Shown: positions 3,022-36,633 of the stretch, in pieces | How the letters are laid out: each line of letters begins with the position of its first letter | How positions within the stretch are numbered: position 1 is the stretch's first letter | DNA from: an uncultured Eubacteriales bacterium | GTDB taxonomy: Bacteria > Bacillota > Clostridia > Oscillospirales > Oscillospiraceae | Direction: 5' to 3' | Length of the DNA: 36,633 bases | NCBI GenBank assembly: GCA_900319635.1 | Contig: ONPF01000009.1 | Span: 1 to 36,633 of the forward strand | Made by a program: the position numbers and the translations under genes | Notes under the pieces: model-generated | The model's database searches: none | What the model was told of the DNA's origin: nothing | What the model saw: the letters and a program-made list of their open reading frames with translations, nothing else

Positions 3022-3050
3022 TTGACAGGCGCCTTGAAATCGCGTATATT
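3022..3050 (+). promoter_or_regulatory. Sigma-A promoter of rplJ-rplL
   Basis: TTGACA at 3022-3027 and TATATT at 3045-3050 are separated by exactly 17 bp. The expected transcript start, near 3057, places the whole L10 leader in the 5' untranslated region. Confidence 0.85.
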
Positions 3051-3054
3051 ATTG

Positions 3055-3120
3055 GGGCGCTCCGAAGACAGCAGGTGGGTTCGCCCGTAAATCCTGCCGA
3101 GGACATCAACAAGATTTGAT
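3055..3120 (+). promoter_or_regulatory. Ribosomal protein L10 leader
   Basis: The stretch contains the two halves of the conserved L10-binding leader: AGACAGCAGGTG (3066-3077) and ATCCTGCCGAGG (3091-3102), with GCAGG pairing to CCTGC across a GGGTTCGCCC hairpin. In Firmicutes this leader binds L10 (or L10 with L7/L12) and represses its own operon. It lies between a consensus promoter and rplJ, as expected. The match is by motif and position; a covariance-model search was not run. Confidence 0.85.
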
Positions 3121-3130
3121 TGTTTTTGTG

Positions 3131-3163
3131 CCTCTGCGTCTTTTGATGCAGGGGATTTCTTTA
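3131..3163 (+). terminator. Attenuator hairpin in the rplJ leader
   Basis: CCTCTGC (3131-3137) pairs with GCAGGGG (3148-3154), with one G-U pair, followed by ATTTCTTT. It lies between the L10-binding leader and rplJ. L10 binding upstream could therefore control read-through, as proposed for other Firmicutes L10 leaders. Confidence 0.65.
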
Positions 3164-3200
3164 TGAGCGTGATCATTCGCAACCGGAGGTGAAAACACAC

Positions 3201-16437: not shown

Positions 16438-19034
16438 GCCCGCGCCTTTCGCTGCAGCTCATAGAGCAGGTTCATGGCCTCGATGGGCGTCAGGGTGTTC
16501 AGATCCAGGTTTTTCAGAGTCTGGCGCAGCTCGTCCGCGGCCAGGTCTCCCAGGCTGATCTGGTCGTCCTCCTCGAAGTTCAGGGCAGGCCGGGGCACCC
16601 CGTCCGCCTCCAGCTCCTTCAGGTAGCCCTTGGCCTTGGAGATCACCGCCTCCGGCAGGCCCGCCAGCTTTGCCACCTCGATGCCGTAGCTGTCGTCGGC
16701 TGCGCCGGGGACGATCTTGCGCAGGAAGACCAGCTCGCCCTTCTGCTTCTTGGCAGTGATGTTGTAGTTGCGCACGCCGCTGACCTCCCCCTCCAGGGCG
16801 GAGAGCTCGTGGTAGTGGGTGGCAAACATGGTCTTGGCGCCCAGCCTCCGCTTGTCGGCGCAGTATTCCAGCACCGCCCGGGCGATGGCCATCCCGTCAA
16901 AGGTGGAGGTGCCCCGGCCGATCTCGTCCAGGATCAGCAGGGAGTCCGCCGTGGCGTGGCGCAGGATGTTGGCCATCTCGTTCATCTCCACCATGAAGGT
17001 GGACTGGCCGGAGGCCAGGTCGTCAGAGGCGCCGATACGGGTGAAGACCCGATCCACCACCCCCAGCACCGCGCTCTGGGCGGGCACGAAGGAGCCCATC
17101 TGGGCCATGAGGACGATGAGCGCCGTCTGGCGCATGTAGGTGGACTTGCCGGCCATGTTGGGGCCGGTGACAATGGCCACCCGGTCGTCGCCGTCGTTTA
17201 AGTAGGTATCGTTTGGGACGAAGAGCACGTCCTTCAGGGTCTGCTCCACCACCGGGTGCCGCCCCTGCACGATCCGCAGCTCCCGGCTGGCCTCCATCTC
17301 CGGGCAGACGTAGTTGTTGCGGGCCGCGGTCTCGGCCAGGGAGCAGTACACGTCCAGGGTCGCCACCGCGTCGGCGGTGGCCTGGATGCGGTTCACCTGA
17401 GAGGCCACCTGCTGGCGCAGCTCGGTGAAATACTCGTACTCCAGCTCGTTGATGCGCTCCCGGGCGGAGACTAGGGCGTTTTCCAGCTCCTTCAGCTCCG
17501 GGGTGAAATAGCGCTCATTGGAGACCAGGGTCTGCTTGCGGATATAGTCCTCGGGCACGGCCACGTCCCCGGCGGACTTGGGAATGTCGATGTAATAGCC
17601 GAAGACCCGGTTGTAGCCCACCTTCAGCTTCTTGACGCCGGTGCGCTCCCTCTCCCGGGTCTCCAGGGCGGCGATGGCGTCGGCCCCGTGATCCCGCAGC
17701 TGCCGCAGGCGATCCAGCTCCTCGGAGAAGCCCTCCCGCAGGATGCCGCCCTCCCGCACGGAGAAGGGGGGATCGTCGCAGACGGCCCGGTCGATCAGGT
17801 AGTGCAGATCCTCCAGGGCGTCCATTTCTGCGATCTGGCGCAGCTCCCGGCACTGAAAGCCCTCCAGCAGCGCCTTGAGGCGGGGCAGGGTGGCCATGCA
17901 GTTGCAGAGCTCCCGCAGGTCCCGCCCGCCGGCGGTACCGTAGACGCAGCGCCCCACCAGGCGCTGGACGTCGTGGATCTCCCGCAGGGTCAGCATCAGC
18001 TCGCTGCGCCGCACGGTCTCCTTCACCAGCTCGCCCACGGCGGCGTGGCGCCGCTTGATGGCCAGCACCGAGAGGAGCGGCCGCTCCACCCAGGCCCGCA
18101 GGAGCCGGGCGCCCATGGGCGTCCTGGTCTTGTCCAGCACCCAGAGAAGGCTGCCCCGCTTCTCCCCGCTGCGCAGGCTCTCGGTGAGCTCAAGGCTCCG
18201 GCGGGTGACCCAGTCCAGCTCCATGTAGCGGCCGCCGCGGAACACGTCCAGGCGGCTGATGTGGCTGAGATCGAACTTCTGGGTCTCCCGGATGTAGCGC
18301 AGCAGGGCACCCACGGCGGCGATCGCCTCTGGCTGGCCGTCCAGGCCGGCCTCGTCCACGCTGCGATAGCCGAAGCGCTCGCAGAGGGCCGCGGCGGCGG
18401 GCATGTACTCGAAATAATCCCGTGGCGGCTCCAGCATGGCGTTCAGCTTCTGCCGCAGGAAGCTGCCGATGGCCCGCTCCTCCAGGGCGCCGCGGCTCAG
18501 CAGCGCCTCCCGGGGGGCGAAGCGCCCCAGCTCGTTGAGGATGTGGTTCACCGCGTCCTTCTCGAAGGCCGCGCAGCAAAATTCTCCGGTGGACACGTCG
18601 CAGAAGGCAGCGCCGCCCCTGTCGCCGCTTACCTCCACGGCGCAGATGTAGTTGCTGCGCCGCTCCTCCAGCATGGAGCTCTCGGTGACGGTGCCGGGGG
18701 TGATGATGCGGATCACGTCCCGCTGCACCAGCCCCTTGGCCAGCGCCGGATCCTCCATCTGCTCGCAGATGGCCACCTTGTAGCCCTTGGCGATGAGCCG
18801 GGCGATGTAGGTCTCCGCGCTGTGGTAGGGCACGCCGCACATGGGGGTGCGCTGCTCCGGATCCTCCACGTTCCGGTCCCGGGTGGTCAGCGCCAGATCC
18901 AGCTCCCGGGAGGCCAGCTTCGCGTCGTCGTCGAACATCTCGTAAAAGTCGCCCAGGCGGAAGAACAGCAGGCAGTCCGGGTGCTGCTGCTTGATCTCGT
19001 TATACTGCTTTTTCATGGGCGTCAGCTCAGCCAT
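16434..19034 (-). CDS. mutS: DNA mismatch repair protein MutS
   Basis: Recognises mismatches and small loops and recruits MutL. The 866-residue product has all MutS domains. The mismatch-reading motif F-Y-E is at Phe30-Glu32 (GDFYEMF). Connector, lever and clamp regions follow. The ATPase has Walker A GPNMAGKST (622-630), RIGASDDLASGQSTFMVEM, Walker B DEIGRGTSTFDG (near 700) and the FATHYHEL dimer motif. The ATG at 19034 has GGAG seven bases upstream; an ATG two codons earlier is too close to that site. Its start lies eight bases inside the upstream DUF559 gene and its stop overlaps the CPBP gene. mutL is 3.5 kb away and transcribed divergently. Confidence 0.98.
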   Translation of the reverse strand: MAELTPMKKQYNEIKQQHPDCLLFFRLGDFYEMFDDDAKLASRELDLALTTRDRNVEDPEQRTPMCGVPYHSAETYIARLIAKGYKVAICEQMEDPALAKGLVQRDVIRIITPGTVTESSMLEERRSNYICAVEVSGDRGGAAFCDVSTGEFCCAAFEKDAVNHILNELGRFAPREALLSRGALEERAIGSFLRQKLNAMLEPPRDYFEYMPAAAALCERFGYRSVDEAGLDGQPEAIAAVGALLRYIRETQKFDLSHISRLDVFRGGRYMELDWVTRRSLELTESLRSGEKRGSLLWVLDKTRTPMGARLLRAWVERPLLSVLAIKRRHAAVGELVKETVRRSELMLTLREIHDVQRLVGRCVYGTAGGRDLRELCNCMATLPRLKALLEGFQCRELRQIAEMDALEDLHYLIDRAVCDDPPFSVREGGILREGFSEELDRLRQLRDHGADAIAALETRERERTGVKKLKVGYNRVFGYYIDIPKSAGDVAVPEDYIRKQTLVSNERYFTPELKELENALVSARERINELEYEYFTELRQQVASQVNRIQATADAVATLDVYCSLAETAARNNYVCPEMEASRELRIVQGRHPVVEQTLKDVLFVPNDTYLNDGDDRVAIVTGPNMAGKSTYMRQTALIVLMAQMGSFVPAQSAVLGVVDRVFTRIGASDDLASGQSTFMVEMNEMANILRHATADSLLILDEIGRGTSTFDGMAIARAVLEYCADKRRLGAKTMFATHYHELSALEGEVSGVRNYNITAKKQKGELVFLRKIVPGAADDSYGIEVAKLAGLPEAVISKAKGYLKELEADGVPRPALNFEEDDQISLGDLAADELRQTLKNLDLNTLTPIEAMNLLYELQRKARA

Positions 19035-19413
19035 GATCATTCTCCGTTTCTGTTGTTTCTGTTGTGCTTTGTTCCAAATGCAGGAGGATGCTCTCGCAGA
19101 CTCCCGCAAAATTCTGGGTCACGGCGTTGTTGGGGTATCGGAGTACTCGTATACCGCGCTCTGCAAAGAAGCGATCCCTTTCCCTGTCGTAGGCCAGCCC
19201 CTTGTCCTCAAAATGCTGAGATCCGTCCAGCTCAACGGCGATCTTCGCCGAGGGAATATAGAAGTCCGCTATGTATCTCCCGATCAGCTCCTGACGCTTC
19301 ACCGTGACCGGCAGCGTTTTGAGAAACTCATACCAGAGCTTTCGCTCCTGCTTTGTCATATTCTTCCGCAGGGTTCTGGCATTTTCTCGTAAATGCGGCG
19401 GATGGTATTCCAT
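19027..19413 (-). CDS. DUF559 protein (Vsr-like nuclease fold), upstream of mutS
   Basis: A 128-residue member of the DUF559 family, which belongs to the PD-(D/E)XK nuclease superfamily and is related to the Vsr mismatch endonuclease. Visible residues are ENARTLRKNMTKQERKLW at the start, then RYIADFYIPSAKIAVELDGS with Asp50, Glu61 and Asp63, and His67. GGAGGAGAAC precedes the ATG. The last eight bases overlap mutS, and the mutS ribosome site lies within this gene, so the two are probably translated together. Catalytic activity is not proven for the family. DUF559 genes also occur in many unrelated contexts. Confidence 0.85.
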   Translation of the reverse strand: MEYHPPHLRENARTLRKNMTKQERKLWYEFLKTLPVTVKRQELIGRYIADFYIPSAKIAVELDGSQHFEDKGLAYDRERDRFFAERGIRVLRYPNNAVTQNFAGVCESILLHLEQSTTETTETENDHG

Positions 19414-32966: not shown

Positions 32967-33161
32967 ATGGATCTCAAAAAAATCGGCGGCCTGGTGCTGG
33001 CCGCGCTGTTGATCATCGGCGGCGTCATCCTGGCCGTCAAGCTCATCTCCGGCGCCCTGGCGCTGGTGCACGGGCTGCTGAACACCATTCTGGGCGTGGT
33101 GGTGATCCTCGCCCTGGTGGCCATCGTCATCTGGATGTTCCGCTACGCGAAGAAGAAATAA
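32967..33161 (+). CDS. Small two-helix membrane protein
   Basis: A 64-residue protein that is almost all hydrophobic: two predicted membrane helices (about residues 6-24 and 33-57) and a basic end RYAKKK. The ATG at 32967 has GGAG seven bases upstream; an ATG two codons earlier is too close. It is 12 bp after rluD and followed by a hairpin. I recognise no family. Confidence 0.7.
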   Translation: MDLKKIGGLVLAALLIIGGVILAVKLISGALALVHGLLNTILGVVVILALVAIVIWMFRYAKKK

Positions 33162-33174
33162 GCGAGCAACGCAA

Positions 33175-33208
33175 AAACCGCCTGCGGGGAAAACTCCGCA
33201 GGCGGTTT
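33175..33208. repeat. Terminator-like hairpin, left copy of a 34-bp direct repeat
   Basis: AAACCGCCTGCGG, GGAAAACT, CCGCAGGCGGTTT. A perfect 13-bp stem with A/T ends that could end the rluD operon (plus) or stop minus-strand transcripts (T5 on that side). It is identical to 33378-33411. Confidence 0.85.
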
Positions 33209-33377
33209 CAAGCTGTCGACAAAGTGTCGACAGCTTGAAAGCAAGAATGGGAACTTCCGAAAAAAGTTCCCATTCTTGCATAGATTGAACGTGAAAGGGG
33301 GACTCCCATCCCCCCTTCACAATCCCCCCATGCGTGTCGGTACCTTGCCGCATGGGCGAAGGGTTGTCTACAGTCTG
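33209..33377. mobile_element. Multi-hairpin, MITE-like element, copy 1
   Basis: A 169-bp block between two identical 34-bp hairpins. It contains a 16-bp stem TTTCAAGCTGTCGACA with an AAG loop (33206-33240), a 16-bp stem GCAAGAATGGGAACTT (33241-33256 with 33264-33279), a GTGAA-GGGGG/CCCCCTTCAC stem (about 33291-33320), and CCCATGCG/CGCATGGG (about 33327-33356). Its ends CAAGCTGTCGACAA and TTGTCTACAGTCTG are inverted copies matching at 11 of 14 positions. No open frame is credible. It is called MITE-like because of the ends and the flanking duplication; a structured RNA is the alternative. Confidence 0.6.
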
Positions 33378-33411
33378 AAACCGCCTGCGGGGAAAACTCC
33401 GCAGGCGGTTT
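33378..33411. repeat. Terminator-like hairpin, right copy of a 34-bp direct repeat
   Basis: Identical to 33175-33208. It lies just past the aqpZ stop on the minus strand, so it may serve as that gene's terminator, although only three T residues follow on that strand. Confidence 0.85.
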
Positions 33412-33412
33412 T

Positions 33413-33448
33413 ATATGGATTGCTTCTCTTATATGTATTGCTTCTCTT
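33413..33448. repeat. Tandem 18-bp repeat at the aqpZ stop
   Basis: ATATGGATTGCTTCTCTT and ATATGTATTGCTTCTCTT, two units with one difference. The second overlaps the aqpZ stop codon. Confidence 0.85.
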
Positions 33449-34136
33449 ACTTCTTCTCCAGGAACTTGTAGGTACAGGCTGCCAGGGCCGCGCCGATGAA
33501 GGGCGCCACGATGAAGACCCAGAGGACGGCAAGGGGCGCGGTATTGCCCGCGATGGCCGCTACCACGGCGGGGCCGAAGGAACGGGCCGGGTTCACGGAG
33601 GTGCCCGTGAGGCCGATGCCGAAGATGTGCACCAGGGTCAGGGTCAGGCCGATGATCAGACCGCCGAAGGAGCCGTGGCCGGCATTCTTGGAGGTCACGC
33701 CCAGGATGGTCAGCACGAAGATAAAGGTCAGCAGGATCTCCACGATCAGCCCGGCGGGGACGCTGCCGTTCACGCCTGCCAGCCCATTGGTACCGAGACC
33801 GCCGGTCTTGTCCGCCACGCCGCCCAGCTTGAAAATCAGCGCCAGCAGACCGGCGCCGGCCAGCGCGCCCAGGCACTGGGCGATCACATAGCCCACAAAG
33901 TCCTTGACCTTCATGCCGCCGGTCATCAGCACACCGAGAGACACCGCGGGGTTGATGTGGCAGCCGGAGATGTTGCCCACGCAGTAGGCCATGCCCACGA
34001 TCACCAGGCCGAAGGCCAGCGCCGTCAGGATATAGCCGCCGCCCGCTGCCGCGTCGCAGCCCACCAGCATCGCCGTGCCGCAGCCCAGCAGCACCAGGGT
34101 GCAGGTTCCGATAAATTCCGCAATCAACTTTTTCAT
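33447..34136 (-). CDS. aqpZ: Aquaporin Z-type water channel
   Basis: A membrane channel of the MIP family. The 229-residue product has two NPA motifs (HINPAVSLG at 62-64, SVNPARSFGP at 182-184) and about six membrane helices. Selectivity-filter residues read as in AqpZ: Phe42, His170, Thr179 and Arg185 by alignment to the known motif spacing, which favours water over glycerol. AGGAGG lies before the ATG at 34136. It is a single gene with its own promoter. Confidence 0.94.
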   Translation of the reverse strand: MKKLIAEFIGTCTLVLLGCGTAMLVGCDAAAGGGYILTALAFGLVIVGMAYCVGNISGCHINPAVSLGVLMTGGMKVKDFVGYVIAQCLGALAGAGLLALIFKLGGVADKTGGLGTNGLAGVNGSVPAGLIVEILLTFIFVLTILGVTSKNAGHGSFGGLIIGLTLTLVHIFGIGLTGTSVNPARSFGPAVVAAIAGNTAPLAVLWVFIVAPFIGAALAACTYKFLEKK

Positions 34137-34177
34137 GTTTTCTCCCTCCTTATTCAAGTTTCGTTTCCGGTGTTTCC

Positions 34178-36456: not shown

Positions 36457-36487
36457 AAAAAATCAGAGCCGCTCATTTGAGCGGCTC
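36457..36487 (-). terminator. Minus-strand terminator beside element copy 2
   Basis: On the minus strand, GAGCCGCTC, AAAT, GAGCGGCTC, then TGATTTTTT. It directly adjoins the second multi-hairpin element and would end transcripts coming from beyond the right edge. Confidence 0.85.
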
Positions 36488-36633
36488 AAGCTGTCGACAA
36501 AGTGTCGACAGCTTGAGAGCAAAACTGGGAACTACCGAAAAAAGTTCCCAGTTTTGCGTAGATTGAACGTGAAGGGGGGCATCCCTTCGCCCTCCCCCCT
36601 TCACAATCCCCCCATGCGTGTCCAAACTATGCC
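36485..36633. mobile_element. Multi-hairpin, MITE-like element, copy 2 (cut by the window edge)
   Basis: It has the same order as copy 1: CTCAAGCTGTCGACA stem (36485-36517), GCAAAACTGGGAACT stem (36519-36533 with 36543-36557), the shared TAGATTGAACGTGAA, a GTGAAGGGGGG/CCCCCCTTCAC stem, and the shared CACAATCCCCCCATGCGTGT. Stem bases that differ from copy 1 change in pairs. The right end lies beyond the window. Confidence 0.65.

Follow-up and report, generated by a model that had tools for sequence, protein, structure and literature searches.

In the window, by which we mean the whole stretch of 36,633 nucleotides analysed here (contig ONPF01000009.1, from an uncultured Eubacteriales bacterium), an identical 34-bp palindrome is found at 33175-33208 and again at 33378-33411, on either side of a block of hairpins. 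An earlier note on the sequence had pointed out this repetition and offered two readings of it: an insertion that duplicated its target hairpin, or one structured RNA comprising the block and both hairpins. How did the same hairpin come to stand on both sides of the block? Comparison of its copies makes us highly confident that the block is a non-coding miniature transposon, which a DDE transposase of the IS1182 family most likely mobilises in trans and which duplicates the whole target stem-loop at the ends of genes. The features of the locus are the following:

33208..33378, + strand: putative non-autonomous IS1182-type element (MITE), 171 bp, TCAAGCTGTCGACAAA...GTTGTCTACAGTCTGA; boundaries from flank comparison between copies
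33176..33207, no strand: left copy of the duplicated target stem-loop, 32 bp, identical to 33379-33410; the hairpins differ at other copies of the element
33379..33410, no strand: right copy of the duplicated target stem-loop, 32 bp, identical to 33176-33207
33208..33223, + strand: left terminal repeat, mostly conserved across 40 aligned copies
33363..33378, + strand: right terminal repeat, 15/16 bases identical to the ends of the IS1182 elements L101 and L107
33208..33238, + strand: hairpin 1, made up of the left end and, after it, an inverted copy of that end; both-sided changes in 5/11 modelled pairs
33241..33279, + strand: hairpin 2, perfect 16-bp stem; both-sided changes in 13/13 modelled pairs
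33291..33320, + strand: hairpin 3, G-run/C-run stem; both-sided changes in 7/9 modelled pairs
33327..33356, + strand: hairpin 4, CCCATGCG/CGCATGGG, from a single-sequence fold
36486..36633, + strand: second copy of the element, truncated by the contig end; aligned part 36486-36622
36468..36485, no strand: hairpin left of the second copy, GCCGCTCATTTGAGCGGC, read from the sequence
32967..33161, + strand: small ORF of 64 aa, its 3' end toward the element; no Pfam match
33447..34157, - strand: aquaporin/MIP-family gene, its 3' end toward the element from the opposite side (Pfam PF00230, 174 bits)

Based on the comparison of copies, the element begins at T33208 and ends at A33378 (TCAAGC...GTCTGA). 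One base on the inner side of each palindrome therefore belongs to the element, so that the identity of the two hairpins stands but their extent changes: the duplication is 32 bp and the element 171 bp, instead of a 34-bp repeat around 169 bp. The ends of the block had been described as inverted copies of each other, and this holds for the redrawn 16-bp ends as well (33363-33378 agrees with the reverse complement of 33208-33223 at 12/16 positions, read from the sequence). The element lies between the 64-aa ORF and the aquaporin gene, which are mutually convergent. An 18-bp tandem duplication (TTATATGGATTGCTTCTC / TTATATGTATTGCTTCTC) adjoins the right hairpin at 33411-33446, and a DUF559 protein is encoded elsewhere in the window, at 19030-19413 on the - strand (PF04480, 93.6 bits).

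Concerning the distribution of the element, the window's own genome (2.16 Mb in 52 contigs, an assembly about 92% complete) gives 56 BLAST matches to 33175-33411, many of which are fragments or self-complementary. The long matches, the query aside, span the element, their limits coinciding with its ends or lying close to them, and one further match is the hairpin alone. Further copies of the 171-bp element are thus present in this genome; in the related copy L103 no reading frame is longer than 54 aa. The element is found in 15 of the 60 genomes searched, namely the own genome and those of 14 other members of its genus. Across the family, where two candidates per genome were scored, a match is seen in 14 of 300 genomes (the own genome included) and in 9 of 106 genera. 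For comparison, 25 stretches were taken from the own genome and 80 from the 14 relatives; their 138 raw end pairs were reduced to 79 non-overlapping ones, 78 of which have both flanks.

The flanks of these copies are duplicated far beyond chance. A direct repeat abutting both ends with a score of at least 10 is found in 50 of the 78 copies (the own genome contributing 6 of its 14), compared with 13 of 6006 mismatched flank pairs; five of these 13 come from related or tandem copies and eight reflect the way in which G+C-rich hairpins resemble one another by chance. As a rule the repeat comprises an entire stem-loop, and it varies from site to site. Since the flanking hairpins differ between sites, they are the target and not a part of the element, and this latter possibility is excluded. 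The two outcomes that the earlier note had named as speaking against an insertion, the same hairpin everywhere or duplication nowhere, are not what the copies show.

The duplication also follows the geometry of the hairpin. Where a duplicated copy has a hairpin that could be measured (n = 47), the length of the hairpin is correlated with that of the duplication (r = 0.92). The 5' foot of the hairpin lies directly against the end of the element in 43 of these copies, and in 35 the opposite foot is precisely where the repeat stops. The duplications of these copies are 14-37 bp long, and 14-41 bp when the loci of the genome-collection scan described below are added to the element copies. In a more lenient hairpin test (n = 75), which is positive at 87 of 588 shifted positions as well, a hairpin is seen on both sides of 55 copies, on one side of 16 and on neither side of four. 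The sets used for hairpin length (47), gene context (70), the lenient test (75) and T-tracts (71 gene ends) drop copies with more than eight end mismatches or with short flanks; those for hairpin length and T-tracts also drop copies below the duplication score, and each convergent copy contributes two gene ends.

There are 28 of the 78 copies below that score. Some have a hairpin on a single side, and the two hairpins of L033 are unlike each other; no hairpin is seen at L256 and L269, where a possible duplication of only 4-5 bp was judged by eye, and the ends of L041, L260 and L263 are doubtful (10 mismatches). The one-hairpin copies were examined for decay of the far hairpin, and the cases were too few. 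The two copies of the hairpin are not identical in L218, where one loop is inverted relative to the other, or in L227, where both arms carry paired changes; it looks as though palindromes had been rewritten as a whole. Chains of the form hairpin-element-hairpin-element-hairpin occur in L374 (contig C41 of the own genome) and L261 (contig C18 of G012); there, it seems, a hairpin that had been duplicated served a second time as a target. L254 and L258, found in two species, apparently go back to a single inherited insertion; in one of them the element contains a 20-base internal duplication (184 vs 164 bp).

Empty sites with one hairpin, which the earlier note had proposed to look for, were found at two loci. 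L259 in G007 has the element with two hairpins, and the same locus in G034 has one hairpin and no element; L251, which is filled in G034, has a single hairpin at its counterpart in G007. The genomes with the empty sites are other species, so the direction and age of these insertions are inferred. Together with the site-specific flanks, the two sites support an insertion that duplicated its target hairpin. Other candidates are less clear: the flanks of L252 sit on different contigs in the relative, and G065 has a possible empty site for L232, whose filled form has one clear hairpin only. At the window locus itself no exact empty site was found among 12 other genomes with the aquaporin gene. G063 (L325) has the element at apparently the same terminator, the aquaporin-side hairpin being gone; in 10 of the other 11 a hairpin without the element lies beyond the gene, judged by eye and with the aquaporin side alone matched.

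The hairpins could also have been doubled by unequal recombination or by errors in the assembly of repeats. The genomes are drafts, several copies lie at contig ends, and L032 and L033 have nearly identical halves, as recombination or mis-joining would give. Doubling is seen, however, in complete chromosomes (L116 of Lysinibacillus and L132 of Clostridiaceae) and in isolate assemblies (L107 of Anaerostipes and L126 of Peribacillus) too; it affects elements of 58 to 1746 bp and begins at the element end. We consider such an origin extremely improbable.

Looking at the neighbouring genes of 70 copies, 33 copies lie between convergent genes, 30 between tandem genes and one between divergent genes, and six have only one neighbour called, which ends toward the element; a gene thus ends toward the element at 69 of the 70. 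The tandem copies are found both at the end of the left gene (20) and at the end of the right gene (10). Gene direction was taken from a codon-usage score trained on nine genes of the window. A previous test by longest ORFs had given 28 of 70 copies as 'divergent' and was replaced after this result: many frames ran to the element edge, and these were taken as spurious reverse-strand ORFs in G+C-rich DNA. Gene ends are the safest places for an insertion, and a bias of 69 in 70 is what would be expected if insertion were random and copies persisted just there. Such selection would leave the equality of duplication and hairpin length, and the boundary at the stem foot, unexplained; the length match rejects harmless sites as the sole cause, and we see hardly any chance that selection alone accounts for the pattern. 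Selection may add to the gene-end bias of a transposon that duplicates its target hairpin.

The position at gene ends is one of the two grounds for calling the hairpins terminators, as the earlier note did; the other is the T-tracts seen across copies. The site in the window does not carry the label by itself: a strict terminator-pattern scan of 33100-33500 gives no sites, and the short T-run there pairs partly inside the stem. At the 71 gene ends that point inward, the far copy of the hairpin is followed by more T than the near copy in 63 cases, by equally many in eight and by fewer in none. In the 10 bases after the hairpin the median is five T for the far copy and three for the near copy, with a mean of 2.1 further out; the near copy adjoins the element's own end by construction, so nothing more follows from these numbers than that the duplication does not extend to the T-tract. 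The U-tract is excluded from the duplication: the far copy keeps it and the gene-proximal hairpin is without it. For this reason the hairpin next to the gene probably terminates poorly, and transcription is predicted to continue into the element and to end at the far hairpin. Transcripts would traverse the element and stop at the far copy, so that the insertion would be nearly neutral and the gene would gain a hairpin-rich 3' UTR. A systematic shift of transcript 3' ends is predicted, the U-tract coming to lie about 200 bases further from the gene.

The block between the hairpins folds as the earlier note described, into successive hairpins, and does so very stably on both strands (z = -10.1 on + and -10.3 on -, with 0 of 200 shuffles as stable on each strand). 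In 40 aligned copies, chosen by hand from the complete ones, three stems hold 96.6% pairing; hairpin 4 is missing in their consensus fold. Both-sided changes occur at 25 of 33 pairs, a value reached in 0 of 500 shuffles and above all slid controls. This covariation of the internal stems, together with the stable fold, is what an RNA reading has in its favour, in which the two hairpins and the block form one functional structured RNA, or a composite 3' UTR module, copied together. The flanking hairpins, on the other hand, vary by site and are single in the two empty sites, and the tandem copies occur in both orientations (20 and 10). Furthermore, the conserved stems contain 20 G-T against 33 A-C cells (33 to 20 on the other strand), related copies being counted separately. 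As G-T pairs do not exceed A-C, there is no sign of selection on an RNA of the + strand, and this candidate was rejected. Compensatory changes are not specific to RNA: selection on DNA hairpins would fit as well, and so would self-templated repair of palindromes. Rfam at gathering thresholds reports only a ribosomal protein L10 leader in the window, at 3044-3170 and outside the element (RF00557, 65.7 bits), and thus no known family for the element. We regard the RNA reading as unlikely; it is rejected for the flanking hairpins, although the element's own hairpins do show compensatory changes.

The link of the transposon to IS1182 comes from its ends. The right end TTGTCTACAGTCTGA (33364-33378) is also the exact IS end in L101 of Tetragenococcus and L107 of Anaerostipes, insertion sequences of 1534 bp and 1602 bp that are flanked by exact duplications of a stem-loop, 25 bp in the former and 26 bp in the latter. 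Their transposases match NF033551 (IS1182) with 458 and 457 bits (cut-off 270) and contain the Pfam domains DDE_Tnp_1_6 and DUF772. The left end (TCAAGCTGTCGACAAA) is unlike the TCAGACTGTAGACAAA of L101 and L107, several positions being different. A genus mate, G016, has a 1579-bp IS1182-type element with an exact 30-bp stem-loop duplication; in the search its transposase gene is split over two frames (309.8 bits to IS1182) and its ends are somewhat different from those of the element.

A blind scan of a genome collection for the 15-base right end gave at least 127 matches in at least 117 stretches, in a collection where hundreds of chance matches are expected. Among the 127 matches listed, 94 have a hairpin of at least seven pairs starting within one base, compared with 370 of 23400 positions drawn at random from these loci (1.6%) and 30 of 747 shifted ones; some of the 33 matches without a hairpin are probably chance. 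A second copy of the stem-loop is seen, among the listed matches with a hairpin, at 26 of 34 ends with enough inner sequence and at 7 of 60 with less; these ends represent 26 distinct loci with inserts of 58-1746 bp, L101 and L107 among them. The scan overlaps slightly with the element copies: L103 is L201, judged by the hairpin pair, and L117 looks like L209.

In the own genome no autonomous partner was found: a search with the L107 transposase gave no match, and there is one weak IS1182 remnant (C50:313-519). At most one mismatch separates 35 places in this genome from TTTGTCTACAGTCTGA, and a hairpin of at least seven pairs starts within one base at 25 of the 28 examined. Some of these places form one end of other inserts, 176-353 bp long and non-coding, in which the second end is similar to TCAAYGTGTAGACAAA; such inserts stand between duplicated hairpins in L365, L366, L377, L383 and L389 (contigs C5, C9, C49, C11 and C25). 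Contigs C6, C9, C10, C12, C15, C18, C21, C32, C38, C48 and C49 end about 250 bases or less from an element end of the TTTGTCTACAGTCTGA type. With so many contig ends close to ends of this kind, the assembly may lack a longer relative present in several copies, perhaps an autonomous IS.

A transposase from outside IS1182, with ends that are alike by convergence, would account for the missing partner in the own genome and for the divergent left end. It would have to account as well for 15/16 identical bases of the right end and for the same rare insertion behaviour in elements which encode an IS1182 transposase, and we think it very unlikely. Three marks of a MITE of IS1182 type are present: terminal repeats shared with IS1182 insertion sequences, a short multi-copy body without a transposase gene, and target duplication with empty sites.

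In the proposed mechanism, an IS1182-family transposase supplied in trans would mobilise the 171-bp element; its target would be the foot of a gene-end hairpin, and the whole hairpin would be copied to both sides of the element. Normally, the staggered cut of a DDE transposase has a fixed length of a few bases. The data suggest that this transposase picks DNA shape, and not sequence, as its target. As the duplication length is tied to the hairpin length, we infer that an extruded cruciform may be what it recognises. A wider reading, to which we give even chances, is that this group of IS1182 transposases uses an extruded stem-loop across many Firmicutes, with each strand being cut at the 5' foot; the duplication would then equal a hairpin of any length, and the miniatures of the group would split terminators and thereby give dozens of genes per genome transcribed hairpin-rich 3' UTRs, from both sides where the genes are convergent. 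How a DDE enzyme reads a hairpin becomes directly testable with these elements, and a doubled terminator makes them easy to recognise in annotation.

Insertion at terminator stem-loops is also known for group IIC introns. These differ from the present elements: they are retroelements that insert by reverse splicing beside the stem and are not known to duplicate the hairpin. In the literature searched, which mostly lay outside subscription papers, ISfinder and TnPedia, the results listed contain no report of stem-loop-duplicating IS1182 elements or of their MITEs. According to PMC5678879 and PMC4923244, a review by Siguier et al. states that some IS1182 members target palindromes. The accessible parts of PMC2267715 and PMC3196728 contain nothing further on targets. 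IS elements in REP palindromes (PMC1525189) are alike in having an extragenic palindrome as their target, but the target there is a repeated sequence family and not any hairpin.

The earlier note had called a preference for terminator hairpins unusual for a MITE. This is fair, but there are precedents in YPAL and in IS1272, which also have hairpin targets. The YPAL (RU-2) elements of Yersinia, compared here by description only, are a close precedent in size (about 168 bp), in their intergenic position and in their targets, which span or border a dyad symmetry and show duplications of 3-26 bp; they are said to be co-expressed with upstream genes (PMC2229807). They differ in that the accessible description mentions neither a link to IS1182 nor duplications of a whole hairpin (PMC2229807).

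Stem-loop-replacing transposition has been described for IS1272/TnSha1 of the IS1182 family (PMC5678879, PMC4923244). The likeness lies in the transposase family, in a stem-loop target without a sequence consensus, in the fact that some of the targets are terminators, and in the 16-bp terminal repeats; TnSha1/IS1272 deletes part of its target hairpin, and several of its targets were confirmed as terminators (Furi et al., PMC4923244). The difference lies in the outcome: all or part of the stem-loop is deleted there, with no target duplication in the accessible account, whereas here the whole stem-loop is doubled. Thus, concerning the marks of IS1272-type replacement, a hairpin target without consensus is found in our elements and the loss of the stem-loop without duplication is not. 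In the accessible text of Wan et al. 2017 (PMC5678879), duplication of a whole stem-loop is no more than a branch that was proposed (pathway b). This outcome predominates among the present elements, which provide dozens of natural insertions and two empty sites for a route that the IS1272 paper only proposed.
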